DNA of 64,000 nucleotides, taken from contig OZ020519.1 of the NCBI GenBank assembly GCA_963971425.1, positions 23,600,786 through 23,664,785 on the forward strand, read 5' to 3'. Of the stretch, positions 10,700-42,802 are shown piece after piece (position 1 is the first letter of the stretch; each line of letters opens with the position of its first letter). This DNA is from Bryoerythrophyllum caledonicum. Lineage: Eukaryota; Streptophyta; Bryopsida; Pottiales; Pottiaceae. Both the position numbers and the translations under genes were made by a program. Under the pieces are notes generated by a model. The model did no database searches. It worked only from the letters and a program-made list of their open reading frames with translations, and was not told the origin of the DNA.

Positions 10700-12235
10700 A
10701 CCTTAAACGTCTGTTGGAAACCGTATATACAAGCAAGCATTTTACTCCATAGAATACATAAAATGTATGGACATTTTGCAACACTTGCGGGTAGAAGTCA
10801 GCTAGGGTTACTCACTTTTGGGCAAAAAAAATATACCTCAAAGTATATTATTTTGGACAAAAAAACTTGATTTTGCCCAATTTAATGGAAAAAAAAGGTT
10901 TTTCTTCAGAAAAAAGTATGTTTCAAGATGGATCTATGCATGATGTATGTGATTGGATAAGAAATCAAAGCAAAAATCAATACTAATTCCTATTTTAGGA
11001 GCCTTGAAGAAAAATCTTGTTTTTAGCAATAAAAGTGAAAATAAGTTTTCGATCTAGAATCTTCAGTTATAATATATGAACACATTATGGCCTGAATGTG
11101 TTCCAAAACTTTTGAAGTATTTAACTTCCTAGAACTCTCAAAATAAGTATATTTGGCAAATGTCATATACTTGTGACAAGTATATACTGATGAAAGATAT
11201 ACCTATATTGGCCAAACCGTAAGTCAGTACTCAACATTTTTGGGGTTCCTAGACTTTAAATCAAGGCAATTATCACATTCCATCAATAGAATCCCAAGAT
11301 CCGTCCGACATTTGCACTATGCAGCAAAAAACGGTTTGTGACTCTCTTCAAAATCATTTGTGACACTATAAATATACCACCTTAGTGGACTTTCACCCTT
11401 ACACCTTTGGATTGAAGGTTCTTCAACCACATCTTTCATTTGGAGGTCATTTCAGTATCTGGACCTTATCATGTCCAAATATGACAATATACATGTAGAA
11501 TGATGAGGCCATCAATAGCCCTTTTGAGGTTTAAGATTAAGCACTGCAAAATGCAAAAGATGTAAGAGAGTAGGATTTTATCTTTTTAACTAGCATTCAA
11601 AATTCAATAATAAGCTATCAATTGATAAAATGGCAGCCATTCAATAGTTGAGAATGGTCTGGAAAAGTTGCATTTTGTAGGATTCAAGTCCGTTAACCTC
11701 TAAAAGACAGAGACTATGTTTCATCAAAACCTCTCCATATATGCCCCTCTAAGATGGGACGTTGCACGACGAATAAAATTTTAAAAAATCATATTTTAAA
11801 CCATAGGATTTTTAAGTTAAATACTAAAAGAAGACATTCAAAAAGTTTCCTAAACTTTTTCAACATAGATTGTAAGATTCATGCATTTGAAGAATGCAAA
11901 ATGATTTTTTTCTTCCCAGCACAAATAGGGTTAGCGTAATTTGACTCAAGATAATAGAATAATTTCCCACTATTCATTGGATAAATCTTATGGATCTATG
12001 TTCTACCTTGTGTTAGATCATTGCATGCCAAAAACTACAAGAATCCTACATGTACACAGTATGGTATTATATTTGAACAGAATAAGGTTCAAATATCAAA
12101 CTCGCCTAAAGAAAGATGTTAGTTGAAGAATCTTCAATTCAAAGGTGTAAGTCTTCCTAAGCTTCAATAAAAAAATTGTATTTTATATAATAAAATATGT
12201 ATTTGTATATATGGTTTCCAACTGACGTTTAAGAG
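10700..12235 (+). mobile_element. Element E: TTAA-flanked TIR element
   Basis: Left terminus ACCTTAAACGTCTGTTGG and right terminus, read inward on the other strand, CTCTTAAACGTCAGTTGG are inverted repeats. The similarity continues through GAAACC and ATATACAA. TTAA lies on both sides (10696-10699 and 12236-12239). The interior contains the D element (10789-11400) and no convincing gene. A related fragment lies at about 20150-20470. Confidence 0.6.
10789..11400 (+). mobile_element. Element D, copy 1 (small TIR element)
   Basis: This 612-bp block is a near-identical inverted copy of 24563-25176; differences seen by eye are few. Its ends are imperfect inverted repeats, GGGTAGAAGTCAGCTAGGG and, read from the other end, GGGTGAAAGTCCACTAAGG. 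The flanking trinucleotides are TTG/TTA-like and do not match exactly. It is non-coding. Confidence 0.6.
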
Positions 12236-14790: not shown

Positions 14791-15303
14791 TTATGGTGGT
14801 TGTACGTCTGTTGGTAGTGGCTCTCCGCTTTCTATTTTTCTTTTGTGTAATATTATGGACATGGCATGGTGTATAGCAATTGTGTTTATTTCTCTAAATG
14901 TATTTTTTATAAGTTTCTTTGGTATTTTGAGTTTGGTTTTTAGGATTTTCATAGGAGGGATGTATGTAGATGCTCTGGCACCTGCTGTAATTACTATTAG
15001 TGGTTCAACTATCCAACCTTTGTTGATAATATCGTTGATGAGAGGTTGGTATTTTTCTATCTTTCTCTCAATGGTATCTGGTGAGAATCTGTCATTACAG
15101 TATGTGAATTCTATAAATTGTACCTTTAAATTGATATTGGGAGATGTAGGGAGGTTTGATTGGTAGGGTAGTCCTTTTATGCATAGTAGGTCTGGTTTTA
15201 GTCGTGCATTACATTGGCATCTTTGTTGTACGCATGTACATGGTAATAGCCATGGAGGGATTGTATTCTCTGGTGGTTTATCATTACTTGTGCCCGCATT
15301 CAT
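14791..15303 (-). pseudogene. LINE ORF2 remnant: restriction-like endonuclease
   Basis: The 170-codon frame starts at MNAGTSNDKPPENTIPPWLL and aligns with the C-terminus of the full-length ORF2. It keeps ARLKPDLLC (the PD motif), IEFTYCNDRF (the acidic core) and IEKYQPLI (the K/Y motif) of the PD-(D/E)XK-type endonuclease known from R2/CRE-like LINEs and Dualen. It also keeps the conserved LIVITAGARAST segment. The lineage was therefore under coding constraint before truncation. Confidence 0.88.
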
Positions 15304-15327
15304 GAGGGTATAACATCTTGAATTTTT

Positions 15328-16570
15328 TTATGAGACTAGTAGTTTTTTAATTTCCCAAACTGCTTTATTGTGTCTTTTTGTTCTAAGCGCATGTATATGG
15401 TATTGCTTGCATTTTAGCAGTACATGTAACCATGTGTCTGGATCTTGGGAGTCGCATATTGAGCATGTGATTGATGGATATAATTCTCTGCCAAAAAATA
15501 GTTGTTTTCTAGCATTGCCCATATATTGACCATGTCTTAGTTTTAGGAGGCATGTTTTTTGGGAGTGTGTTACGTGTTTATTAGTCCAAAATTCATTGGA
15601 TAGTTTATCGTCAATGTCAGTGTTACTTATCCATTTATTTATATTGGGGAAATTTGTTGTAATGTCTGTTAAGTTATGTTCTTTGTCATATTTGATAATA
15701 TGCTTTTCAAGGAATCTTATAGGGCCTTTATCTGGGGTTTCGTCCATAGAATGCCACCAGTCTCTCTGAAAGTAATATGGTGTAGAATGTGCAAATTCAT
15801 GTGGTAGGGCTGCATTGTGGTAATCTTTGTCTCTACCTTGTTTGGCTAGTTCGTCAGCTTTTTCGTTGCCATCTATATTTGCGTGAGCTCGTACTTTGTA
15901 CAATGATGTAGGTTGTGTTCTTTGTTGCAAAAGTGTTACTATATCTTGTAGAATGGTTTTATCCGGGTGGTTATTATGTTGGGTGGGGTGTTTGAGTTGT
16001 GTTTGGATATTGTACAGGCCATTTAAACAGTCTGTGAAAGTGTGTGCAGGTTCATTAGGGTATTTGGAGGTAATATTTTGTAGGGTTGTGTATATTTCCA
16101 TTATTTCAGCTCTAAATATGTTTTGTAAACCTGGGAGTCTTATGGCTAGTTCTATATTTTTGGATTGATTGTATATTCCATATCCTGCAGTTTCACGAGT
16201 CCAGTGATTGCCCATATCTTGTGGTGGGAGAAATGAACCATCAGTATAGTAGCAGTATTGTGATAAGAATTTGGGTTGTTTATCATTTATGAAGTTAGGA
16301 ATTGTTGTTGTATTGTAGTTTGTGACTAAGTTGTCTGTTGGATATGTGAGTGTGTTCCATTCTTTGCTTTTGTTAACTTGTGTATTTAGTTGTGTTGGCG
16401 GGGCAATTTGTATGTATGGTTGAGGGATTTGGAGTTTGTTAAAAATTGTGGTTAGGGCGGTGATTTGTTCATTATTTCCAACACTGGTGTTTTTATGGTG
16501 TACACATAATATGTGAAGAGCAGAAGGTTCTATTCGTGTTTTAGTAAATTCGGGTGGTTTTGTTGGTTCT
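15328..16570 (-). pseudogene. LINE ORF2 remnant: linker, RNase H, CCHC finger
   Basis: The minus-strand frame is open from the truncation point at 16570 to a TAA at 15328-15330. It contains the RNase H motifs YYTDGSF, FRAEIMEIY, FTDCLNGLYN and KVRAHANIDGNEKADELAKQ, so all expected acidic residues and the histidine are present. A finger CSICDSQDPDTWLHVLLKC (CX2CX9HX4C) and the RHNKAVWEIKKLL motif follow. The TAA is the one stop separating it from the endonuclease frame. The full-length homologue reads through this position. Confidence 0.88.
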
Positions 16571-16719
16571 CTATGTAGGAAAACTAATTAGCAAAGGAAA
16601 TAAAACGATCCAAAGAAGTAAATTATAGAGTGCGTTACCCTTCTCTTTATTTTATACACTTAGTCCAAGACTTTAATGACCCTAATCAATTCAAGAGCTT
16701 TGATTATTGTTTTTATAAG

Positions 16720-24562: not shown

Positions 24563-25176
24563 AGTGGGTGAAAGTCCACTAAGGTGGTATATATATAGTG
24601 TCACAAATGATTTTGAAGAGAGTCACAAACCTTTTTTTGCTGCATAGTGCAAATGTCGGACGGATCTTGGGATTCTATTGATGGAATGTGATAATTGCCT
24701 TGATTTAAAGTCTAGGAACCCCAAAAATGTTGAGTACTGACTTACGGTTTGGCCAATATAGGTATATCTTTCATCAGTATATACTTGTCACAAGTATATG
24801 ACATTTGCCAAATATACTTATTTTGAGAGTTCTAGGAAGTTAAATACTTCAAAAGTTTTGGAACACATTCAGGCCATAATGTGTTCATATATTATAACTG
24901 AAGATTCTAGATCGAAAACTTATTTTCACTTTTATTGCTAAAAACAAGATTTTTCTTCAAGGCTCCTAAAATAGGAATTAGTATTGATTTTTGCTTTGAT
25001 TTCTTATCCAATCACATACATCATGCATAGATCCATCTTGAAACATACTTTTTTCTGAAGAAAAACCTTTTTTTTCCATTAAATTGGGCAAAATCAAGTT
25101 TTTTTGTCCAAAATAATATACTTTGAGGTATATTTTTTTGCCCAAAAGTGAGTAACCCTAGCTGACTTCTACCCAG
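24563..25176 (-). mobile_element. Element D, copy 2, upstream of the kinase-like gene
   Basis: Near-identical inverted copy of 10789-11400. The ends are GGGTGAAAGTCCACTAAGG and, inward from the right, GGGTAGAAGTCAGCTAGGG. AGT occurs on both sides and may be a 3-bp duplication. Its inner end lies only about 12 bp upstream of the kinase-like ATG, so it supplies the immediate upstream region of that gene. Confidence 0.65.
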
Positions 25177-29579: not shown

Positions 29580-32500
29580 ATCGGAGGGATGGGTGTTGAG
29601 TAGCTCCGCATTTCCTGGTGAGGAGGGTTCAAAGTGTTAGACAAATTCTGTCCCACAAGGCAGTAAGAGGTGCTGGTCCTTACTCGCAAGCCCACTTGTG
29701 TGTGTCAAAATTTGTTGAAAGGTGTGGGAAGTACATACATGTGTTGGGATAGGGCTTATTGGATTAGAATTAGATTGGATCTTGCAAAAAGGTTGTTGGA
29801 AACTGGAGGTTATGATCTATGAGGAAGATCTGCAGCGGGCCCTGTGTTGGACTAGGTCAGTAGCAACCAATCCACGTCCTTCACCGCAAGATCCATATCT
29901 AAGATCTAGATCTGAGTAGGGTAAAGGTACTTACACACTCTACACTTGAACCATCCGAACCAGACCTCATTCAACAAGATGCTGCACAAGTTCAAGCTGC
30001 CCAACAAACGACAACCAGATATTTTCTCCTTACCACACTCTTGCTTATCAGTTGTTCTCATTTTTTCCATTGCATATTACTTCCTTTCTAACAAACAGGT
30101 ACATCAAAACGACACAACAAGACACACACAAAGGATACAATCAAATCACAAGAATAATGCCTATCAACATACAATGACGTCCAAATCATTGTACAAGAAC
30201 CAACGATCAAGACAGCACTGATCTCACTTCACAGGTACGTTCCTTCCAAACCTCACCCTCTCTACTTGCTTAGTTTTAAAACATGCTTACACTATTAGAT
30301 TTCACACCATAAGATTGCCACAAAGCACATTATTCTTTAGGCACACACAAGTATTAGTACAGCAACAACCACTGCAGAAACAACACAGCTGGTTCTACAA
30401 AGACGCTCCAGACTACAACAACTTGAAGTGGCTCCAAAACGACATGACAACAAACGCAGCAGGGAGCACACAACAAAAACAGCAGAGTATATGCCATAGA
30501 AACTGCAACATGGACATGGAGCCTCGATTCTGCAACATGCAAGACAAGACCACGAACAAGACAAACAACTACTCGACTACACACACAAGAAGACCATGCA
30601 GAAGTAACAGGACATCAACAAGCACGGAGGTAACATATCCTGTCCACACTAATGATAAACTCGGATCCTCACAGATGCAGCATATTACAAGACATAGGTA
30701 CCTACGATATACAAGCAGCAGCAGCCTAGGAGTCCAAGCTGGCAACAACACGAGTATGTGTGTCTACACACATGAGAATTGGGCTCCCTTCATTCACCGA
30801 GGTGCCCTAACCAGGAACAAAGACAGGGAGCCCCAACCGCAAACTACAGCGACGTGGGTGCCACACGCAGGAAGCGGATGTAGAGTATCAAACAACGAAG
30901 TCAAGGCAGCTCGCTCTGCACACACATATGTGTATGGAGGCCTTAGACGTACGCAGCAGTGGAGAAGAGGCATGCACCGAAGACAAGAGGGAAGCAACAC
31001 TCAGGAACCGGCCTGCACCATACACATCAAGATCAAAACATCGCCGGGACAAACCACAACACAACACAACCAACAACCACTCGAGCTCCACAACAAAAAA
31101 CAAGACCGAACTCAAGAAGACAGGTACGTACATTGCAAGGTAAGTCTTCCTACACCAACTCCATGGTCTCCTTCATGTCCCCCTCTCCCACCTAGGTACT
31201 CTAACATCTGCAGAGGGAGGGCCACCATTATGGACGCCATTTCGCCCCTCCTACAACAAGAGCAAATTGTCAACGGTACTAAACCATCATGCATCAAGAC
31301 CAGAAGAAACCCTAATGTCGCCGCCCCCAAAAAAGACCAAGTGCAGAAATTTCCAAGCCTAGATCCAAAATCCAAATATCTAATCGAGCGGCTAGCACCT
31401 CTCCACAACCCTAGCCGCCAGCAACAAGTAAACAAGATGCATCCAACGTCAACAGACATATTCGTCACACCTCAAAGACACACAGCAAGGTATATAACAC
31501 TATACCTTCTCCCACAGAAATCCTCTTTCGCTCATTCAGCACATAGGCCCCCCGCTTCTGCACCCTGTTCCTTCCGGGAGCGAGCGTCCTCAACGCGAAG
31601 TGATAGAGACTACCTGGCAAGGCGAGCAAGCGCACATTCAGGCGGCGAGGTCCCACCTAGCGGCCTGACTCGGAAGACAGCCGCAACCTTCTCCACCACC
31701 GATCCGGCATCTACACACAGTGAAGCCATTCTTACCCTCTTTTCTGCATTTAACGTAAGAGAATGGTGTTTTTATTGGTATCATCAGCAAAAGATTAGGG
31801 CTCGAATTCAATGTGTTTATAGATCGCATCGGGATTCACTACGCACAATAGCTCCTGTGAATTTTAGTACCATCCATAACCTTCGTGTGTACAAAATCTC
31901 ACCATTACTAAGGATCTTACAGGAAAAACTAGGACGTGAAGAGAACAGGAAAACGGAACACAAGTGCAGAAGCAAACGAGAACGAAACAAGCTGCTACCT
32001 CTCAGCAAGACGCGGCACCTGCTTAACCTGATCTACAGCCAACCTGATCTCCAGCCAAGTTGCCGCAGTTTGCTGGTCCTGGTGACACGCCGAAAGAATC
32101 CACTCGCTGCCGACATAAGGAGGCCAACCCTGACAGCCACAAGGACCCACCTCCCAAAGCGATCCTCCCCATCGAAGGTGGAAGCCAACTCTCACGCATG
32201 TTCACAGCGTAACACCGTAATCTCATACGCTCTACGTCGAAGACTGGTGAGCCGCACGAACCCCAACTCGAATACCTTGCGCGCGTATGCGCTCAAGCGG
32301 CGCAGAAGTCACAGGGGTATTCGGAGAAGACGTGATGTGGGCGCAGAGAGAAAGTTCTGGGGCGGGCTCATAAAGCTGAGGCGTAAAGAGCACGATCTGG
32401 TGCATTAGGAGTCTCAGAAGGAAGGAGCTCGGGAGACCGAGAAGTCTGGGGCGGAGGCTCGTCACAAACCTGCCCACGAACGCTGGAGGACAAGCGGAGT

Positions 32501-33305
32501 TTCTGCAAGCAAGGACTACGCGCAACAAGAGTACCTGAAACGCACTCACGGAGGTGGGAGACTCAGAAGGAAGTACGGGAGACCAGAAGAGAACACCGAA
32601 CAACGTGAGCACCTGCAAACCCTTCGAGAGGCTGGGAGGCCTGGAGCAAAGAACGGGAGACCTGAAGGGAAGAGCGGAAAGCCTGGAGTGAAAGGTAAAC
32701 CAGTAAACAACCAACGGACTCTTAGTAGAAACGAATGCCATAGGACGGTACATACTTGGAGAACCTGCTGGCAAGGGTGCCTGTGCCTCAAAAACGGAAG
32801 GTCCAAACAATCAGGTCAAAGCCTTCTCTTACTCCCCCCATTAGTTAGACTCTATCATCATTGGGGTTTTGCAAACCTATGGACTTTTGCACAAATCTTT
32901 TATAAATATTTATTTGCTTGGGGAGGTGACCTCTATTTGGGCACCTCCCATGTGTGTATGTGTGCTGAAATTACTAGGCAACGTAGTATCCCGCCATTTA
33001 ACACCTTCTTCTTCCATAAGATGGTGAAAATGAGCATAAATGAATGGTGTATACTCTACACAAGATGTGATACTAAAGAGATTGTGGGTAGAGATTGTAG
33101 GCAAATGGTTAGGAATGAATGGTGTCTATTGTATGCAAGCTATGTTGCCAATATTGTTGCAAGTATAAACTTCTTCTTAACTACAAACTCTCAAACAGGC
33201 CCACAACTTAATTTGTGGAATGAGGTTGTAGTTAAGATGATAAGAAGTTATTTGAAAGGCAAAGACAAAAACCAACTCCAATACCTTTTTCTTGCTTTGT
33301 TCAGA
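29580..33305 (+). other. LINE 5' leader
   Basis: A long leader with an unusual make-up. The stretch 29950-31130 is very rich in A and C (CACAACAACA-like). The stretch 31500-32700 is GC-rich, with repeated GGGAGACC (near 32430, 32568 and 32660). The stretch 32820-33300 is AT-rich. Donor-like CAGGTACGT occurs near 30233 and 31122 and AAGGTAAGT near 31137. Promoter and splicing roles are not shown by sequence alone. Confidence 0.5.
30315..32408 (+). CDS. Uncertain leader open frame (possible ORF0)
   Basis: One frame stays open for about 2.1 kb in the LINE leader. The first ATG of reasonable context is near 30444. The predicted product is rich in Ser, Thr, Gln, Asn and Arg, without recognisable domains. 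The first kilobase is A/C-rich, and such sequence lacks the T needed for stop codons, so openness there means little. The second half stays open in a GC-rich context where chance stops would be fewer. The C-terminus is very basic (ALKRRRSHRGIRRRRDVG). It may be a real ORF0, part of a spliced leader, or chance. I would not assign a function. Confidence 0.25.
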   Translation: MPQSTLFFRHTQVLVQQQPLQKQHSWFYKDAPDYNNLKWLQNDMTTNAAGSTQQKQQSICHRNCNMDMEPRFCNMQDKTTNKTNNYSTTHTRRPCRSNRTSTSTEVTYPVHTNDKLGSSQMQHITRHRYLRYTSSSSLGVQAGNNTSMCVYTHENWAPFIHRGALTRNKDREPQPQTTATWVPHAGSGCRVSNNEVKAARSAHTYVYGGLRRTQQWRRGMHRRQEGSNTQEPACTIHIKIKTSPGQTTTQHNQQPLELHNKKQDRTQEDRYVHCKVSLPTPTPWSPSCPPLPPRYSNICRGRATIMDAISPLLQQEQIVNGTKPSCIKTRRNPNVAAPKKDQVQKFPSLDPKSKYLIERLAPLHNPSRQQQVNKMHPTSTDIFVTPQRHTARYITLYLLPQKSSFAHSAHRPPASAPCSFRERASSTRSDRDYLARRASAHSGGEVPPSGLTRKTAATFSTTDPASTHSEAILTLFSAFNVREWCFYWYHQQKIRARIQCVYRSHRDSLRTIAPVNFSTIHNLRVYKISPLLRILQEKLGREENRKTEHKCRSKRERNKLLPLSKTRHLLNLIYSQPDLQPSCRSLLVLVTRRKNPLAADIRRPTLTATRTHLPKRSSPSKVEANSHACSQRNTVISYALRRRLVSRTNPNSNTLRAYALKRRRSHRGIRRRRDVGAERKFWGGLIKLRRKEHDLVH

Positions 33306-34946
33306 ATGGCGTCATCTTCAAGTGTTGCATCTGCCTCCAAGAAACTCTTCTCTGATAGTCAAATGGTTGAAGTAGAAATCTTGAGTCAGAAAAGGTCTAA
33401 TGGCGTTCAAATCCTCTCAAGCCAAAAGAAGGTTAAGGGCAAAGAAATTCCCGAATTTCAACGTGCTCCCTTTTGGCTAGGATTTCATGCTCTTAACCTA
33501 CTTGCCATGGACCAATCCCTCCCTATTGAACCAAATTACTCTGTAAGTGAATTGGTTAGAATGGGTATGAGTCATGGGGAAGCATTAGAATGTAATGAAT
33601 CCATCCCTGCCTTCCCATATGTCATTCAGGAAGAATGGCCTTCCAAAAGAAATGACAAGGATGGTGGAAATCATTACAATCTAACACAACTCCCCCATGA
33701 ACTTGAGATTGATGAAAACGGGTTTGCACTTGATTATCATGTTGGCATCTTCTTTGAGCTAGGAGAACTAGTGATATTAAAAGATGATGTTATGGCCAAG
33801 GTGGTTGCTCGATTGTTGCACATGAAAATTGAAGTGGGGGATATACTTGGTGAACCTATTGCAATCATGTGTTATCATGGCTCCAAAAGATGGAGTGGAG
33901 CAATCAAAGTACATCTTAAAAATCCCAATATGGACGGAACAGGGCTCCTCAAAGGTATCCGACCGTTCATCCTTAAATTGGATGAAAAAATTTGTAGGGG
34001 TAAAATATGCAAATCCTTTGACTCGATTGCCATTGCAAGTTTACTCTCTATAAGGGTAAATAGTGCAAACTTGAAAGGAAAAAAGTGGCATAACATGTTT
34101 GAGGAAGTTGTCAAGGATGGTTTCTCTAGAGGTCTAGATTTTGAAGTGACCAATGTCCAAAAAAATGAAGGGGCGGATTTTGCTTGGATCAAAGCACCGT
34201 CACCGGATGAGGCAAAAAGGATTAGGTCACAAAAAATTGCCTTTTCCAATGAGCTTATGGAAGCAACATTCGCAAGCAAGGAAAAAATGTCAGAAGATGA
34301 CAAGGCGAAGAAAAATGCTGTAGTCTTGATTGTCAAAAATCTGAACAAATCCAAATCCACCTCATCACTAGAAGAGGGCATCAAAGCATATATGGGTGAA
34401 AGAAATGTGGCTGGTGTCTTCTTCCGATTGGAAAATAGTAAACATGTAGGGTCTTGTAATGTCCAATGTCTCAATGCCGCCGTATACAAAAAGTTTGTCA
34501 AACAGAATGCAAAAATACTAGGTAAATATGTCGAGTTTTGCCCCCATCCAAAAAGTTTGGATGGAAGCAACGCTCCAACATCTGAGGAACTTGCACGGCT
34601 TGGCTTCACTGACGTGAATACCGCCCTTGCCAATACCGTGCAAGCTTTGGAGAATGCACCAACACAAAACTTCACCAAATCAGACCTCAACCGAATGGTT
34701 GAGGAAGCTGTAAACAAAGGTGCAGAAACAACATTGGGGGAAATGAGGAAAGAAATGAGCTTGCTCAAAAGCGAGATTGTGGAGGAAGCTAAGGTATATG
34801 CGGACAAGGTTCAAACCGAATCAAATAGAAACTCAAGAGTCCAAATAGCCCTCCTCCAAAAACAGATGAGAATCACCTTGGAAACCCTTCAAGCCGACCA
34901 TCCCGATACACTCGAAATTGAAGGCAATATGGACATGTCAAACTAG
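33306..34946 (+). CDS. LINE ORF1: RRM-like and coiled-coil protein
   Basis: A 546-codon frame. The ATG at 33306 (MASSSSVASASKKLF) is preferred over an upstream in-frame ATG at 32688, because the upstream part reads like leader sequence. Residues about 60-270 form a globular region with GEPIAIMCYHGSKRWSGAIK and GLLKGIRPFILKLDE. Residues about 337-418 look like an RNA recognition motif: VVLIVKNL in the RNP2 position and GSCNVQCLN in the RNP1 position. Residues about 460-530 form a charged coiled coil. RRM plus coiled coil is the known plan of several plant LINE ORF1 proteins, which bind element RNA and multimerise. It ends with TAG, in the same frame as ORF2 but 0.6 kb upstream of its ATG. Confidence 0.82.
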   Translation: MASSSSVASASKKLFSDSQMVEVEILSQKRSNGVQILSSQKKVKGKEIPEFQRAPFWLGFHALNLLAMDQSLPIEPNYSVSELVRMGMSHGEALECNESIPAFPYVIQEEWPSKRNDKDGGNHYNLTQLPHELEIDENGFALDYHVGIFFELGELVILKDDVMAKVVARLLHMKIEVGDILGEPIAIMCYHGSKRWSGAIKVHLKNPNMDGTGLLKGIRPFILKLDEKICRGKICKSFDSIAIASLLSIRVNSANLKGKKWHNMFEEVVKDGFSRGLDFEVTNVQKNEGADFAWIKAPSPDEAKRIRSQKIAFSNELMEATFASKEKMSEDDKAKKNAVVLIVKNLNKSKSTSSLEEGIKAYMGERNVAGVFFRLENSKHVGSCNVQCLNAAVYKKFVKQNAKILGKYVEFCPHPKSLDGSNAPTSEELARLGFTDVNTALANTVQALENAPTQNFTKSDLNRMVEEAVNKGAETTLGEMRKEMSLLKSEIVEEAKVYADKVQTESNRNSRVQIALLQKQMRITLETLQADHPDTLEIEGNMDMSN

Positions 34947-35075
34947 CGTTGACTAATGTAGCGGCGGGAAAAACACCACTTAAAGTATATATATATACTA
35001 AAAACAAAAAACAAAAAACAAAAATAAATAAAGTATCCCTAGATACTACAAAAGAAAAAGCCACAATTAAATGCC

Positions 35076-35442
<367 letters not shown>

Positions 35443-35519
35443 ACAACAACAACAAACAACAACAACAACAACACTCCACACCCCTCCCAATAGCAACCAC
35501 AAACACTACTCATTTCAAA

Positions 35520-35564
35520 CTATTAATTATACTTTGTGGAGACATAGAAACTAACCCCGGCCCT
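35520..35564 (+). other. 2A-like ribosome-skipping motif before ORF2
   Basis: In the ORF2 frame, directly upstream of the ORF2 ATG, the codons read LLIILCGDIETNPGP. This matches the consensus D-(V/I)-E-x-N-P-G-P of 2A peptides, with the usual upstream leucine-rich segment and Gly before Asp. In known 2A peptides the ribosome skips the Gly-Pro bond, so the downstream protein would begin with Pro (35562-35564) and then Met-Pro-Asn. The frame is open upstream to 35043 but has no ATG there. Confidence 0.85.
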
Positions 35565-38500
35565 ATGCCAAATATCTTCCACAACCACCCAAAAATACAT
35601 AAAAGATTATCGAAAATATATTTTATACCAAATACTATAAAACTCCACCCCGAATATCAACACTTGGCATCTTCCTTTGCACCACTTCTAACAAATAATC
35701 ACATGCATCACCAAACTTACTCCACCCTCTACCCCAACATTTCCCACTACATACAACTAAAAAACATCAACCACCCATCAACACACATCTTATTCGCCAT
35801 AATTACTACCCTCCACCCTTCAATAGATGAATGCAACAAAATCATCATCCAACATACTGCCAACACAAACCCAACATATTGGACAAATACACTACTAAAC
35901 ACCCTATCTTCTCTACATAACCCCCCTGAAAGACATATAGATACACTCCACCCATACACCAAATTCCTAGTAGAAAACCAACACCTCTTCGAACACAAAA
36001 CCTCTCTACACAATGACCTATATAACTTTATTCATTGCCAAACCCCACCCCCTTCCCCAGATGAAATACAACTAAAATTCCCCTTCTTCCCGCACAATCT
36101 TATCCTCGAAGCCCTTAGATGCTTTGAACCAATACATGCTTACACACACCCCACCTCGATACCCGACTACATTTCCCCTCCACTCCGTATCCACGACAAT
36201 ATAGACAACAGAAGCACATATATAACTACATGGAACGCCGCAACATTAAATATTGCTTTACCAAGCATCCATAATCTAACCGCCCATACCAACACACCAC
36301 CCGCCATAATTGCCATACAAGAAACTAAACTAACCGCTACTAAATCCACAAAATACATACAAAAAACATTCCCCAACTATAAACTTATATTTAATAACAC
36401 TCACTCTCTCACAAGATGCATCCAACAAAGAAGGCCATATACACCGGCAAGAGGAGGTCTACTCATGCTCATACACCAATCATATGCCTTCCCCGGGAAT
36501 ATTACTAAAATCCCCACCCCGGCTAATATATCACCATATCTCCAAATTATTGAAATTACTAACCGACCCCTTCAATCATGGCTCATCCTTCACCTATACA
36601 TGCCCTCTCACATAGAAGACTCGAGGCTTATCCCGGAAATCCAAAATTCCATCACTTCACAAATAAATACACACGCTAACCACACAATAATACTCTGCGG
36701 AGACTTTAACCGAGATATCGCCCTTATTGGACGGCAACACGGAGAGGTTTCTATCCCCCCAATGGACATAGACTATCAATGGAAAAATTATACGGAGAAC
36801 CTAGGATTATATCTAATCCCAACTAATACACAATACTCTCGTCAAGGCGGACATAATTACACACACACTAGCCTAATTGATGGATTCTACATTAAAACAC
36901 CTAATCATACCCGATATACATCTACTACAAATACCACAACCAACTTAAACTCGGACCACTTCCCAATCCAACTAAATATACCTCACAACACCCTTATAAG
37001 TAGACCTCCCACAATCATCAACTCAAATGATACTAAAATACTAAACCCCATCCCAAAAGAAAACCTTGATAACTTTAATACAATATTCTTTGAAAAAAAC
37101 TCACTACAAATAGACTCCCTTACAGATACTCTCTCTAACCATCAACACCTTACACACATACAATGGCAAGAAACTTGCAAGACTCTTGACAAACTAATTA
37201 ATGAAATTTCTATTATTTTAGAAAAAACCTGTAAAGCGCCTTCGATCCCACATCTCACACCTCGAACGTCAAAACAAGGGGGATATCTCCCGAGAAAACT
37301 AGCCAAAAAGTGGAAACAACACCTTGCTACATACCACACCATTCGCAAAACAATTTACACCGCTAAAACTAATCATAATTGGCGAACCCACCCCATAATC
37401 TCCGAACTACAAAACCTCCATCACCCTCATATCCCTCAAATACCACTACCTAACACCTCTCACGAAGAATGGCTAAAAGACATTGCAATCATTGCAAAAA
37501 ATGCCAATACAGAAGCTCGAAAAATTACTACAAGATATGCAAGAGAATGTGTCAAAAAAGCCATATCTAAATACCGCCAACTGTACGAAACTAGCCCAAA
37601 AAAGATTAATAGAAAAGTCTTCAAAAATAACACAAACCTACCACTAGATTGCATCTTAGACCAAAACAATAACATTCTAACGAGCCCTGATGACATTGCA
37701 AACGAAATACATTTTCAACAATCCATAAACAATAGACCAACCACCCCCCCATGCCACTTCCAACCACAACACACATCAACATGCACGTGCGGAGTTAGGC
37801 AATACCCGTGGCATGACTTAGACGGATTCACCATTGACAAAAGAGGCGAACCAACAATACCTCTCCACACATATTATAACAGAGACACATACAACATGTG
37901 CCTAAAAAATTTGGGAACTAACAAAGCCCCCGGCCCGGACCATATACCCAACTCAATTCTAAAAAATATGCCCCCAAGATTCCACGACCTCCTATCATTA
38001 TTTTTCCTTCATTGTTACAAACAAAAATCCATTCCCGCATCTTGGAAAACAAGTCTAACAATCTTATTATACAAAAAAGGAAACCCATATGTGCTACCCA
38101 ACCACCGACCTATTGCCTTAGCTAACACCATTTATAAATTATATACTAGCACACTAACATCAATATTATCGGCTTACGGGGAAATACACCAAATACTACA
38201 CGAAAGCCAAGAAGGATTTAGAGCCGAGAGAAGTACCACACGACAACTTCAAACCCTCATTGCCGCACTTGAAGATGCAAAATTCACTAATAAAGACATT
38301 TACATACTTTACATTGACTTTAAAAACGCATTCGGTTCCATTGACCATCCTCGATTGCTAGCCATAATGAGTGATCTTGGATATCCAGAAGACGCTGTCA
38401 AACTGGTTGGTAATATATACTCTCAATCTACAACTACATACACCGGAGAATTCTTTGGTAAAACGCGCCCTATCCCCATCCAACGTGGTACCATTCAAGG

Positions 38501-41500
38501 CGATACACTGAGCCCATACCTCTTTATCATTTTTCTAGAACCTCTATTGAGATGGCTTCAAAGAGGCAATAATGGCTACACATTTGGCACCTCAGAAATC
38601 ACCGTAAACTCCGCTGCATATGCCGACGATCTAGCGGCCATCTCCGGTCGCCTTAAATCACTCCAAATTCAATTAGACAAAATAGACAAATTTTGTCTAT
38701 GGACCGGGATGGAACTTGGGGTCCAGAAATGTGCCGTAACCGGGTGCCCAAATAAATCCAAAATAAATCCGACCGCATTCAAAGCCCTCATTCAAGCTAC
38801 CAATATCCAATATCCTAACCAACCAATTCCAGTTCTCAACCAAAATCAATCCTACATATACCTTGGAATAAACCTAGTCCCATCACTAAAATGGAAAATT
38901 CAAATCCAAGCTACTACTACAAAACTAATTAAACAATGCAAGGAACTTACACTATGTCCGGCCACATTGCAACAAAAAATAAAAATGATTGATACCGTCA
39001 TACGTCCGGGTATCTCATATAGTTTTTATGCGGTCCCTTATTCCATGCCCGCCATAAACAAACTTGATAAAAAAATCATAGCCTTACAAAAGAAAGTATG
39101 CGGACTCCCTAATTGCACGCCCAATGTCATTACACAACTCCCCCACGAACTATTCGGATTAGAAGCTTTTTCCCTCAAAAATGCCTATCTACGTTGCATT
39201 GGTGAACAACTCCAGAATGCACTTAACGACAAGGGACGACTAGGATTAATCTATAGTGGACTCCTTCGGCACACCCTCGCCATTTATGGTGGAGCACAAT
39301 ACCTTCAAAGACTTAAAAAAACTGATTGTCTTCGGTCTCCCATTACCCGCACACTCTTCTTACTCAAAACAGAAGGTCAAACATTTCTAAAAAGCACACT
39401 AGAAGATTTCCTACTAGGCCCCGCGCCGCTCGAACAAAACTGGGCAAATGAAATACATAACCTCCCTAGACTTGACTGTCAATTATCCGACAAACTCCTA
39501 CAAAAACTTTTTTCTGCAAACATTACCGACCTAAAACAAATTACACTACCAAATGGAACACACCTTATGGACGACAAGAGCTACAAAACATTCTACGGTA
39601 CCCCTCACAAATTAATAAAAAGTGCACTAAATATTGCTAAACAATTATTTTGTCACCCTACATGCCTCCCTATATGCCCCAACCCTTGCACCACTCACGC
39701 CCCACCTTACACACTTAAAGACGCGTACATCATTAGCCACAATGACATCCACCCCAACAACAACCCCCCATTAATTCCCCTAAATCCGCCACAATCACGA
39801 CCATATACCCCCCCACCACATATATTAAAAAATCCTTCCATACATCCAATAAACAACATAACCGCGCACAAACATAGAAAGTACATTGATTCTTACAACA
39901 TAAGTAAACAATATACGTCATACCTATGCCATTGGTCCCACAATAACACCACCTATACCAAATGGCTCTCACAAAGAAATCTTTTTCCGTGGCACAACCC
40001 AAATACTTCCTTACACAACACCAAAATTCTCACACAATACTACCTTAGAACTCAAAACAATTACTACCTAAGTATCATACAATTACACCACCCTCAAGCA
40101 CAACCTCGAGATAATAGATTTGTCACGCCACCCCTTATTATCCCCCTCCTTAACATCTTCACAACCGAATGTAACCCCGAAACAGACATCCTCGCACAAA
40201 CAAATACTATCAAAATACAACAAGATAATGCCCACATATACGAAGGTAATGGGAGTCATCTAATAACCATACCACTCACTAGACTACAATGGCTGTGGAA
40301 CCAATACCAAAACGCACTACAAACCCCCATTAACATTGAACCAACACCCCAAACATTCGAAACTGAAATTGTTTGGCTATATCAGAGATATAAATACCGT
40401 ATACCCAAAAATGATCCTCTTAAAAATGCACACTACACATTACCCGACCCCATCCTAAACTACCTTATTACATCTATGAATATCACACACTCATACTTCT
40501 CATCTCCCGTTACATGCTCCACAAAAATTTCAAAATTCTACTCCCCATTCGAGCGGGATAAGATTTTTGGGTCTCTCGGAAAAGCCTTTGATCATAGATG
40601 GAGCGGAATAGGCCTTGCACACCCTCACAACGAAGTAGAAACTCAACAAGCAATACATTGGGCACGCCTAGCGGCAAACAACGATCCTAACCACAACATC
40701 ACCATTATTATCACTCCCGACACTCAATGGTACCAAAACTCTAACCCACACTCAGGCCCATTCCCGGACTCCCACATCATAGTACTATTTGAAGCGGACT
40801 CTATGACATATAAAGAACCCACTATACCACCGCAAATACTAACACCCCGCCTTGAACCAGCAACCTTACGTATTCTATGTATACATCACCAAACTCAAGA
40901 AATAGGTAACATGGAAAACTTCACTCATCTCACTTTAATAGCAAAAAATCTAAATATCAACAAGGTATACACCGCTATTGCCCCACCCACACCTATTTTA
41001 ATCCGTGTAAACCGTAACAAAAAATGGTCTAAAACCCCCCACATAAACATCTCTGCACTACCAATTACCGAAATGAACCTTCCATTCCCCAACTACCAAA
41101 CCAATACCGTCCTTAAATTTGACCCCAACTTTAGCTACTACACTGACGGCTCCTTCAAAGAACCAACCGAAGTAAGCCCAGGACACTGGCACCGAGAAAA
41201 AGCAGGTTATGGGGTATACAATTCAACCAAACAAATAAAACTAGGTAAAAGACTACATGGACTCCAAAATATCCTAAGAGCCGAAATGATGGCTATACAC
41301 AAAACCCTTAAGATAATCACCACTCAATACCCAAACGAACCGGCTCACATTTTTACAGATTGCATAAATGTATTATATCTCCTTAATACACACATAAAAC
41401 ACCCCACTTTACACAACAGTCACCCGGACAAAACCATCCTTACATCTATGGTTACAATGCTTCAAAATCGCACACAGATTACTACACTCCACAAAGTCCG

Positions 41501-42602
41501 TGCTCATGCCAATATTGACGGCAATGAACAAGCCGACAAACTAGCAAAGGAAGGAAAAGAAAAAACCCACAAAAATGCAGAACACCCATACGAACACGCC
41601 CATGCCACCCCATATTACTTTCACAGATATGAATGGCCCTCTATGGGAGAAACTCCAGACAAAGGACCCATACGTTTTTTGGACAAATACCTCAAAAAAC
41701 ATGATCTTGTAAATAACTTGGAAAAACTCACAGAAAATTTCCCCAATATTGATAAATGGACCGGCAACCCAAATATTCACAACGAACTGTCCAACAATTT
41801 TTGGAAAAACCCCATAATTACGGACGCACAAATCACATGCCTAATCAAATTCCGCACCGGACAATACATGGGAAATGCCCGCAAACAACTCTTCTTCGGA
41901 ATTGAAAGATTCCCTACAATTACATGCCCAATTTGCAACACCACGGACCGGGACACATGGCTACATGTCTTACTCAAGTGCCAAAACCCTCATATACACT
42001 CATTAATTGTCAAAAGACATAACAAAGCCGTATGGGCTATTCGTAAACTACTTATTTCATCAACCAAATCCCGGTGCTTCATTCTCATGAATGCAGGAAC
42101 CTTTAATGACAACCCACAAGAAAATACGGTCCCCCCTTGGCTTTTACCATGCATTTGTCACACTCAAAGATGCCACTGCAATGCAAGACTCAAACCAGAC
42201 CTACTATGTGTTAGAGGGCTTTCACACAAAGACCCACCACCAAACCACATAGACCCGAGTCTCACTATTCAGTTTATTGAATTCACATATTGCAATGATA
42301 GATTCTCTCCGGACACTATTGCAAACAAAACAAACAAATACCAACCATTACTTGACGCTATTCAAACATTAGGATGGAAAGTAGACCCCCTCATTGTCAT
42401 CACCGCGGGTGCTAGGGCCACCACCTTCATTCCCTCAATGACAACCCTTGAAGAAACATTTAAAATCCCCATCACCTCAATCAAAACCACCTTTTCTAAC
42501 ATTAACACTATCGCAATTCAACATGCTATGTCGATACTTCTACATAAACGAAAACTTGAAAACAACCAGCCTCTTCCTAACACATCGAACCCCCCTCCAT
42601 AG
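35565..42602 (+). CDS. LINE ORF2: APE, RT, RNase H, restriction-like endonuclease
   Basis: A 2,345-codon uninterrupted frame. Residues about 215-465: APE-type endonuclease with TWNAATLN, IQETKLT, CGDFNRD, LIDGFYI and SDHFPI. About 780-1200: reverse transcriptase with KAPGPDHIPNSIL, YIDFKNAFGSID, QGDTLSPYLF and AAYADDLAA. About 1855-2005: RNase H with YYTDGSF, AEMMAI, FTDCIN and RAHANIDGNEQADKLAKEG. About 2121: CPIC-x9-H-x4-C finger, then RHNKAVWAIRKLL. About 2200-2260: restriction-like endonuclease with RLKPDLLCV, IEFTYCNDRF and KYQPLLDAI. All catalytic positions I can judge are present. A long stretch between RT and RNase H (about 650 residues) and the first 210 residues are unassigned. The product probably nicks target DNA and copies element RNA there. 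Which of the two nucleases does the nicking is unknown. Confidence 0.92.
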   Translation: MPNIFHNHPKIHKRLSKIYFIPNTIKLHPEYQHLASSFAPLLTNNHMHHQTYSTLYPNISHYIQLKNINHPSTHILFAIITTLHPSIDECNKIIIQHTANTNPTYWTNTLLNTLSSLHNPPERHIDTLHPYTKFLVENQHLFEHKTSLHNDLYNFIHCQTPPPSPDEIQLKFPFFPHNLILEALRCFEPIHAYTHPTSIPDYISPPLRIHDNIDNRSTYITTWNAATLNIALPSIHNLTAHTNTPPAIIAIQETKLTATKSTKYIQKTFPNYKLIFNNTHSLTRCIQQRRPYTPARGGLLMLIHQSYAFPGNITKIPTPANISPYLQIIEITNRPLQSWLILHLYMPSHIEDSRLIPEIQNSITSQINTHANHTIILCGDFNRDIALIGRQHGEVSIPPMDIDYQWKNYTENLGLYLIPTNTQYSRQGGHNYTHTSLIDGFYIKTPNHTRYTSTTNTTTNLNSDHFPIQLNIPHNTLISRPPTIINSNDTKILNPIPKENLDNFNTIFFEKNSLQIDSLTDTLSNHQHLTHIQWQETCKTLDKLINEISIILEKTCKAPSIPHLTPRTSKQGGYLPRKLAKKWKQHLATYHTIRKTIYTAKTNHNWRTHPIISELQNLHHPHIPQIPLPNTSHEEWLKDIAIIAKNANTEARKITTRYARECVKKAISKYRQLYETSPKKINRKVFKNNTNLPLDCILDQNNNILTSPDDIANEIHFQQSINNRPTTPPCHFQPQHTSTCTCGVRQYPWHDLDGFTIDKRGEPTIPLHTYYNRDTYNMCLKNLGTNKAPGPDHIPNSILKNMPPRFHDLLSLFFLHCYKQKSIPASWKTSLTILLYKKGNPYVLPNHRPIALANTIYKLYTSTLTSILSAYGEIHQILHESQEGFRAERSTTRQLQTLIAALEDAKFTNKDIYILYIDFKNAFGSIDHPRLLAIMSDLGYPEDAVKLVGNIYSQSTTTYTGEFFGKTRPIPIQRGTIQGDTLSPYLFIIFLEPLLRWLQRGNNGYTFGTSEITVNSAAYADDLAAISGRLKSLQIQLDKIDKFCLWTGMELGVQKCAVTGCPNKSKINPTAFKALIQATNIQYPNQPIPVLNQNQSYIYLGINLVPSLKWKIQIQATTTKLIKQCKELTLCPATLQQKIKMIDTVIRPGISYSFYAVPYSMPAINKLDKKIIALQKKVCGLPNCTPNVITQLPHELFGLEAFSLKNAYLRCIGEQLQNALNDKGRLGLIYSGLLRHTLAIYGGAQYLQRLKKTDCLRSPITRTLFLLKTEGQTFLKSTLEDFLLGPAPLEQNWANEIHNLPRLDCQLSDKLLQKLFSANITDLKQITLPNGTHLMDDKSYKTFYGTPHKLIKSALNIAKQLFCHPTCLPICPNPCTTHAPPYTLKDAYIISHNDIHPNNNPPLIPLNPPQSRPYTPPPHILKNPSIHPINNITAHKHRKYIDSYNISKQYTSYLCHWSHNNTTYTKWLSQRNLFPWHNPNTSLHNTKILTQYYLRTQNNYYLSIIQLHHPQAQPRDNRFVTPPLIIPLLNIFTTECNPETDILAQTNTIKIQQDNAHIYEGNGSHLITIPLTRLQWLWNQYQNALQTPINIEPTPQTFETEIVWLYQRYKYRIPKNDPLKNAHYTLPDPILNYLITSMNITHSYFSSPVTCSTKISKFYSPFERDKIFGSLGKAFDHRWSGIGLAHPHNEVETQQAIHWARLAANNDPNHNITIIITPDTQWYQNSNPHSGPFPDSHIIVLFEADSMTYKEPTIPPQILTPRLEPATLRILCIHHQTQEIGNMENFTHLTLIAKNLNINKVYTAIAPPTPILIRVNRNKKWSKTPHINISALPITEMNLPFPNYQTNTVLKFDPNFSYYTDGSFKEPTEVSPGHWHREKAGYGVYNSTKQIKLGKRLHGLQNILRAEMMAIHKTLKIITTQYPNEPAHIFTDCINVLYLLNTHIKHPTLHNSHPDKTILTSMVTMLQNRTQITTLHKVRAHANIDGNEQADKLAKEGKEKTHKNAEHPYEHAHATPYYFHRYEWPSMGETPDKGPIRFLDKYLKKHDLVNNLEKLTENFPNIDKWTGNPNIHNELSNNFWKNPIITDAQITCLIKFRTGQYMGNARKQLFFGIERFPTITCPICNTTDRDTWLHVLLKCQNPHIHSLIVKRHNKAVWAIRKLLISSTKSRCFILMNAGTFNDNPQENTVPPWLLPCICHTQRCHCNARLKPDLLCVRGLSHKDPPPNHIDPSLTIQFIEFTYCNDRFSPDTIANKTNKYQPLLDAIQTLGWKVDPLIVITAGARATTFIPSMTTLEETFKIPITSIKTTFSNINTIAIQHAMSILLHKRKLENNQPLPNTSNPPP

Positions 42603-42647
42603 ACCTATATTTACACCTCACCATTAACGCCCACCCTTTTATTATAA

Positions 42648-42678
<31 letters not shown>

Positions 42679-42802
42679 TAAATTAAAAAAAAAAAGAGAG
42701 AGAAAAGACTATCGGGACCCTGGGTCTCTTTGTTATTGGTTACTTGTTACCGTGGACATAGTGTCTACCTTCGAGAGGAGGAAGTAGTTCCATCCTACCA
42801 AC

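Follow-up and report, generated by a model that had tools for sequence, protein, structure and literature searches.

The 64,000-nucleotide stretch of the Bryoerythrophyllum caledonicum genome analysed here (the window) contains a two-ORF, Dualen-like LINE that appears to carry a StopGo (2A) sequence at the start of ORF2, such that the leader translated ahead of it would be released and the ORF2 protein freed; we give this reading a probability of about 0.8. The earlier note on this DNA had placed a complete 2A-like peptide directly before the ORF2 ATG, and this was borne out: the codons at 35520-35564 read LLIILCGDIETNPGP and the ATG adjoins them at 35565 in the same frame (Table 1). The proposed fit to the 2A consensus with a leucine-rich stretch also held. 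The core, GDIETNPGP (35538-35564), fits D(V/I)ExNPGP and likewise the expanded form (D/G/C/N)(V/I)ExNPGP, and the LLIILC-G before the Asp agrees, on inspection by eye, with the context of StopGo motifs 2 and 6, in which a leucine-rich stretch is followed by (A/S/C)G before D12 (PMC12846837). The skip point is predicted to lie between GGC (35559-35561) and CCT (35562-35564). The 2A frame runs without a stop from 35043 to 42602, that is 2,519 codons; the part of it ahead of the motif lacks an ATG in this frame.

The motif is short and is lacking in 60 of the 70 informative relatives discussed below, which could be taken as a sign of chance resemblance. That explanation, which we regard as having practically no probability left, is refuted by the expectation from composition, by the genome count and by conservation across copies: 5.9e-5 strict motifs are expected in the six-frame window, none of 150 second-order Markov simulations of the window contained one, and the degenerate DNA pattern G-(D/E)-(F/L/I/M/V)-E-x-N-P-G-P gave 1,648 matches in the 437 Mb host genome, as against 0 for the reversed control.

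Table 1. Features of the element in the window.
Feature	Position	Strand	Basis
ORF1, 546 aa from this ATG (start uncertain), ends MDxSN-stop	33306..34946	+	homologues upstream of 2A, shared C terminus
Open -1 frame (with respect to ORF1); the window 2A lies in another phase	34922..35554	+	frame comparison
G TCA AAC TAG at the ORF1 end, candidate -1 frameshift site	34937..34946	+	14-copy comparison
2A-frame leader, largely microsatellite, ATG-free in that frame	35043..35519	+	reading frame
(CAA)n/(AAC)n tract, 398 nt	35076..35473	+	length and phase vary among sister copies
2A-like (StopGo) sequence LLIILC-GDIETNPG/P	35520..35564	+	direct reading of codons
ORF2, 2,345 codons plus stop, starts MPN	35565..42602	+	open reading frame
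AP endonuclease motifs TWNA, IQETK, GDFN, NSDH	36228..36959	+	motif reading
Reverse transcriptase, YADD at 38619-38630	38082..38873	+	Pfam RVT_1 E 1.3e-28
PCIF1-like domain (cap-specific adenosine methyltransferase fold), modelled stretch	39900..40979	+	Pfam and Foldseek
RNase H	41133..41555	+	Pfam RNase_H E 7.2e-13
Zinc finger and restriction-like endonuclease (CCHC, KPD...E...K)	41925..42344	+	alignment, motifs, model
(AAAT)n tract, probably the element's 3' tail	42647..42694	+	repeat

A Dualen architecture of ORF2, the type of element named in the earlier note, is supported by its domains and predicted fold. AP and restriction-like endonucleases together mark the Dualen group (PMC4640811), and ORF2 carries both types; R2-type elements are without an AP endonuclease, whereas ORF2 has the AP endonuclease motifs. 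The Pfam Exo_endo_phos match of the window (E 0.0032) lies below the cut-off, and that of the relative P0144 above it. At the endonuclease end, Cys, His, Pro and Asp columns are invariant across 29 aligned rows, and the motif pattern was found in 10 of the 12 proteins tried, window included; a C-terminal AlphaFold2 model made from this 29-sequence alignment reached a pLDDT of 86, and its top seven Foldseek hits were all R2 proteins (probability 1.00). The PCIF1-like domain has a Pfam PCIF1_WW match at 40332-40721 (E 1.7e-8), and its model (pLDDT 73.7) gave cap-specific adenosine methyltransferases as the top six Foldseek hits, with E from 2e-9 to 3e-8. An NPPF-like catalytic motif was not found in this domain, the nearest string being HPHN; PF12237 is also present in many of the listed relatives. 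In an RT tree of 73 rows, none of them a Repbase Dualen reference, the window falls among unnamed and algal relatives. With Rfam, nothing in the window reached the gathering score, and 34700-36000 had no match even when hits up to E 5 were admitted, so that no known HDV-like ribozyme was seen in the latter interval.

Elsewhere in the window, a 5'-truncated relative of the element lies at 14794-16575 on the minus strand; it consists of the RNase H and endonuclease end, contains one stop, and shares 58% amino acid and 68% nucleotide identity with the element. A 582-nt inverted repeat, 99% complementary, occupies 10817-11398 and 24566-25147, 13 kb apart. The window also holds a short TTTAGGG array, presumably of the plant type, and a cytochrome P450 gene (Pfam p450) that we take to be CYP78A-like.

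Conservation around the motif was measured in 41 host-genome copies chosen by the DNA pattern: 20 listed copies, whole or in part, from contig C1, 20 short pieces and the window (individual copies are labelled L0xx or L1xx). The pN/pS ratio was 0.99 in codons -25 to -11 of the leader, 0.53 in codons -10 to -1, 0.03 in the 2A core (pS 0.59) and 0.34 in codons +9 to +24; the core is thus conserved against its neighbours, a property by which the earlier note had proposed to judge the motif. The Asp and Ile codons, which the search pattern leaves partly unconstrained, vary only synonymously, with Asp in 41/41 copies (GAC 39, GAT 2) and Ile in 41/41 (ATA 24, ATT 15, ATC 2). The contrast between 0.03 in the core and 0.99 in the leader indicates that the motif is translated and selected as a peptide and that the leader is disposable.

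As these 41 copies had been chosen by the motif, a second test used a query that starts after it, ORF2 residues 1-226, and the best 150 of 3,873 candidates were scored; all 150 match from residue 1. Among these, the exact GDIETNPGP was present in 41/41 copies whose frame is open for 2,393 codons or more (40 fetched copies plus the window), many of the 40 being near-identical and recent. Decayed copies, with frames below 1,000 codons, kept an exact core in 14 of the 20 sampled (12 GDIETNPGP, 2 GDVETNPGP), or in 16/22 if two skipped contig C1 copies, both motif-bearing, are added; the six others have GGIETNPGP, which is inside the expanded motif, or end in NPSP, NLGP, IPGT, NPRP or YPGP. The earlier note had regarded intact copies devoid of the motif as a sign of coincidence, and all the long-frame copies in this set keep it. 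The 60 pieces of this set reduce to 30 distinct sequences over codons -25 to +7. For these 30, decayed ones included, the leader has a pN/pS of 1.48 and the leucine-rich part one of 0.37, and the ratio is 0.14 for the core and 0.17 for the seven codons that follow. The 226 ORF2 residues of the window copy are 100% identical in four other copies whose frames measure 2,726, 2,559, 2,489 and 764 codons, which implies that the length of the leader changes while ORF2 stays constant. Twenty copies (L057-L075 and L084) on many different contigs share identical residues around the 2A, with MTN instead of MPN, and their frames are open for 2,521-2,757 codons; they are probably a recent burst.

The ATG adjoins the 2A in 41/41 pattern-chosen and 60/60 motif-independent copies, and several copies have no earlier ATG downstream of the ORF1 stop. 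Being invariant, it could itself be the start codon of ORF2, in which case the motif would be a relic or an untranslated RNA element. We consider this improbable, since core ratios of 0.03 in the pattern-chosen and 0.14 in the motif-independent set are unexpected for an untranslated sequence, and the core is kept in all 41 long-frame copies and altered in 6/20 decayed ones.

In our preferred reading, with the 2A active, ribosomes would translate the low-complexity leader in the 2A frame, the nascent leader would be released at the Gly-Pro of NPG/P, and the ORF2 protein would begin with Pro-Met-(Pro/Thr)-Asn. Judged from the sequence, skipping at the 2A probably occurs. The leader would be free in sequence and in length because the 2A removes anything that precedes it, and a selected motif next to an unselected leader is explained, on both counts, by a leader-discarding device, which is what a 2A is. 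Older, decayed 2A remnants (GDMETNPRP, GDKETNPRP, RDIGTIPGP and GDINTRP) are found upstream of the intact 2A in four leaders: L024/L030, L029 (second copy, minus strand), L015/L032 and L013. Their decay is expected if only the 2A adjacent to ORF2 matters. Their arrangement resembles a tandem addition of new 5' ends.

The leucine-rich 2A could also be a signal or targeting peptide, with an unskipped fraction of the ORF2 protein going elsewhere. We think this quite unlikely, as a retrotransposon enzyme requires the nucleus. In its favour, a leucine/isoleucine-rich stretch precedes the core in all 41 aligned copies, and the sea-urchin NLR proteins, in which 2A signal sequences are also a cellular, non-viral use of 2A, offer a precedent (PMC4981915). 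However, the NLR 2A sits at the extreme N terminus, whereas the leaders of this retrotransposon are often long and of low complexity, so that the stretch is not N-terminal.

Upstream of the 2A, 13 of 20 other copies have a homologue of ORF1; none was seen in the stretch read of the remaining seven, two of which were read for about 10 kb upstream. No Pfam family scored above the cut-off in ORF1. In window-like copies it ends in MDxSN-stop. An initial view of the upstream ORF at 32409-34946 as foreign to the element, ORF2 being G-poor and the upstream ORF not, was dropped, as comparison with other copies showed this ORF to contain the element's ORF1. The (CAA)n/(AAC)n unit that fills most of the leader encodes Gln, Asn or Thr and is stop-free in all three forward frames. 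In the window, the open frame at -1 relative to ORF1 takes in the last 25 nt of ORF1, stop codon included, and continues through the leader.

We compared 14 copies with the MDxSN-stop ending, taken from the pattern-chosen and long-frame sets together with the window; because several are sister copies, the number of independent cases is below 14. TCA AAC TA(A/G) terminates ORF1 in 13/14. No stop interrupts the -1 frame between ORF1 and the 2A region in 11/14 copies, whereas the other two frames hold 4-33 and 3-12 stops over the same interval in all 14. The 2A is located in the -1 frame in 10/14 copies, and in 9/14 it is both in phase and reached without a stop. L025 has its 2A in phase with the -1 frame and one stop; L018 and L023 have an out-of-phase 2A as well as 8 and 4 stops, respectively, in the -1 frame. 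In the window and L116 the -1 frame is open and the 2A lies in another phase, whereas in the sister copies L114 and L115 the phase of the leader connects to the 2A; the break in the window is possibly an assembly error in the 398-nt repeat. Release of the ORF2 protein from an upstream peptide, as suggested in the earlier note, is therefore something that we infer for the family, the link being out of phase in the window copy.

Openness of the 2A frame was also seen over a fixed distance. In 22 pattern-chosen rows, some of them from one subfamily, the 600 nt before the 2A contain on average 2.5 stops in the 2A frame, as against 11.1 and 9.5 in the two remaining frames. In L019, L023 and L025, where the 600 nt extend into ORF1, the 2A frame is not clearly more open than the rest (9/9/12, 8/11/11 and 4/8/7 stops). 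L014 has a shortened ORF1 that continues in frame via poly-Gln into the 2A and the first 378 codons of that frame. Two fetched copies of another subfamily have the 2A frame open for 738 and 1,043 codons upstream, and for 2,349 and 2,119 codons from the 2A onward.

A -1 frame that stays open across the ORF1 stop, and that in several copies holds no ATG, speaks for -1 frameshifting or for some equivalent event close to the stop. Ribosomes would reach the leader from ORF1, most simply by a -1 shift near TCA AAC TA(A/G), and such a shift would yield much ORF1 protein together with a little ORF1-leader-2A and free ORF2 protein. Against the frameshift step, however, G TCA AAC deviates from the canonical slippery heptamers, and protein-level constraint is lacking in the first eight codons past the ORF1 stop, where pN and pS are 0.367 and 0.373 in the -1 frame; the ORF1 frame (0.378 and 0.338) is unconstrained too, and the +1 frame (0.335 and 0.498) has the lowest ratio. 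The proposal that two serial recoding steps make the ORF2 enzyme, a -1 frameshift that takes a minority of ribosomes into the microsatellite leader and then release at the 2A, is put forward tentatively, at somewhat less than even odds.

It is equally conceivable, and again short of an even chance, that the 2A works and the leader is entered without a frameshift. Translation could then begin at a non-AUG codon or internally within the A-rich spacer, resume after ORF1 by reinitiation, or use the in-frame AUG that some copies possess. The spacer between ORF1 and the 2A is 39-59% A, the -1-frame peptide just past the ORF1 stop is unconstrained, and an in-frame Met occurs 65-66 codons before the 2A in L007/L026 and L011, with several farther upstream in L029 and L030. 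Against such entry, all three frames of L022, L025, L019 and L119 are devoid of ATG codons from the ORF1 stop to the post-2A ATG, and the stop-free frame seen across the ORF1 stop in 11/14 copies would not be predicted. The route of the ribosomes into the leader is less sure than the proposed discarding of the leader by the 2A.

Protein searches listed 120 of 230 and 95 of 95 matches, which represent 198 different proteins. Most of them are unnamed and come from ENA or JGI sources, taken to be metagenomes; the best-scoring named relatives among the matches listed belong to the green algae Pleodorina, Parachlorella, Haematococcus and Nannochloris. A search with residues 175-720, that is the N-terminal part and the AP endonuclease, returned nothing at E 0.01, and no relative was found in scans of viral contigs and genome contigs. 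The search for the motif before ORF2 in relatives was fruitful: P0153 (63% identity), the closest site-spanning relative among the matches listed, has LALLQCGDIEPNPGP-MPD at the same place. P0144 (45% identity) reads LLLSGDIQPNPGP at the site, with Q instead of E; its DIQPNPGP has six of the seven core positions. P0181 starts at the Met after the site and is therefore uninformative on the motif.

Among 199 proteins, counting the window, 122 had a recognisable AP endonuclease, and in 71 of the 122 it is preceded by at least 120 aa. The full (D/G/C/N)(V/I)ExNPGP core precedes the AP endonuclease in 10/71 with the window, which is 9/70 relatives, and in none of the shuffled regions; the 60/70 relatives without the motif have five or fewer positions, much like shuffled regions. 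On the RT tree the motif appears on several branches, with 7 changes for 10 carriers among 69 rows (P0153 has too little RT to be included), whereas 500 label shuffles gave a mean of 9.5 changes and only 1% had 7 or fewer. A careful RT tree without two long rows again gave 7 changes. From this scatter it appears that the motif in this group is either old with losses or repeatedly gained, and that it is not universal. Some relatives have long N-terminal extensions, for example with 983 and 1,294 aa before the motif; these may be run-on frames in GC-rich DNA, and for this reason we make no polyprotein claim.

Extra domains, PF02902, PF02099, PF00628, PF02338 and PF00145, which we take to be ULP1-like protease, Josephin, PHD finger, OTU and DNA methylase, respectively, occur among the relatives P0008, P0019, P0029, P0041 and P0059. 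P0010 has, by eye, a Josephin-like stretch after the 2A, with no such domain in its search listing, and at about residues 295-370 two 2A-like sequences, the first ending in NPGE and the second in NPGP.

Known 2A-bearing non-LTR elements have a D(V/I)ExNPGP-type peptide before an AP-endonuclease-bearing enzyme, and the Dualen clade is, to our knowledge, not among the clades listed for 2A. Heras 2006 and Odon 2013 are said to place 2A in L1Tc and Ingi of trypanosomes, in sea-urchin STR and in the clades Rex1, L2, CR1 and Crack, and Odon 2013 reportedly links it mainly to one-ORF elements. Unlike the elements of the L1Tc/Ingi/STR type, the one described here belongs to another clade, has an additional restriction-like endonuclease and a plant host, and retains ORF1, with an open -1 frame that links ORF1 to the 2A. 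The presence of 2A in non-LTR elements of trypanosomes and animals is already known (PMC5972666 and PMC4981915); new, as judged from the open-licence literature, are the clade, the kingdom and the linkage of the 2A to ORF1. Dualen/RandI elements of green algae are alike in having AP endonuclease, RT, RNase H and restriction-like endonuclease within one ORF2, and differ from this element in its land-plant host, its 2A at the ORF2 start and its extra PCIF1-like domain, which is common to many of the listed relatives. The passages on Dualen elements that were consulted make no mention of 2A, and no report of 2A in plant or Dualen elements was found in the open-licence literature.

Viral StopGo/2A sequences, such as those of FMDV and cardioviruses, share the core octapeptide and the motif 2/6 context with this one, which in contrast belongs to a cellular retrotransposon and follows an unconstrained low-complexity leader. 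The 2026 survey of viral StopGo sequences reports no natural use by plant viruses and a functional StopGo in plants in artificial constructs (PMC12846837). SART1 and mammalian LINE-1 likewise make ORF1 and ORF2 from one RNA with a special linkage, by stop-restart (PMC5972666); there the linkage is an overlapping stop-start or a short spacer, whereas here it is a continuous -1 frame and a 2A.

The motif is kept by selection in the plant's own, recently active retrotransposon. If the two-step reading is true, StopGo would be in natural use in a plant genome at more than a thousand loci, and the 2A would let the element tolerate an unstable repeat inside a coding frame. If active, this 2A would provide a natural plant sequence for biotechnology, and it would open the question of how a LINE sets the ratio of its ORF1 and ORF2 proteins.
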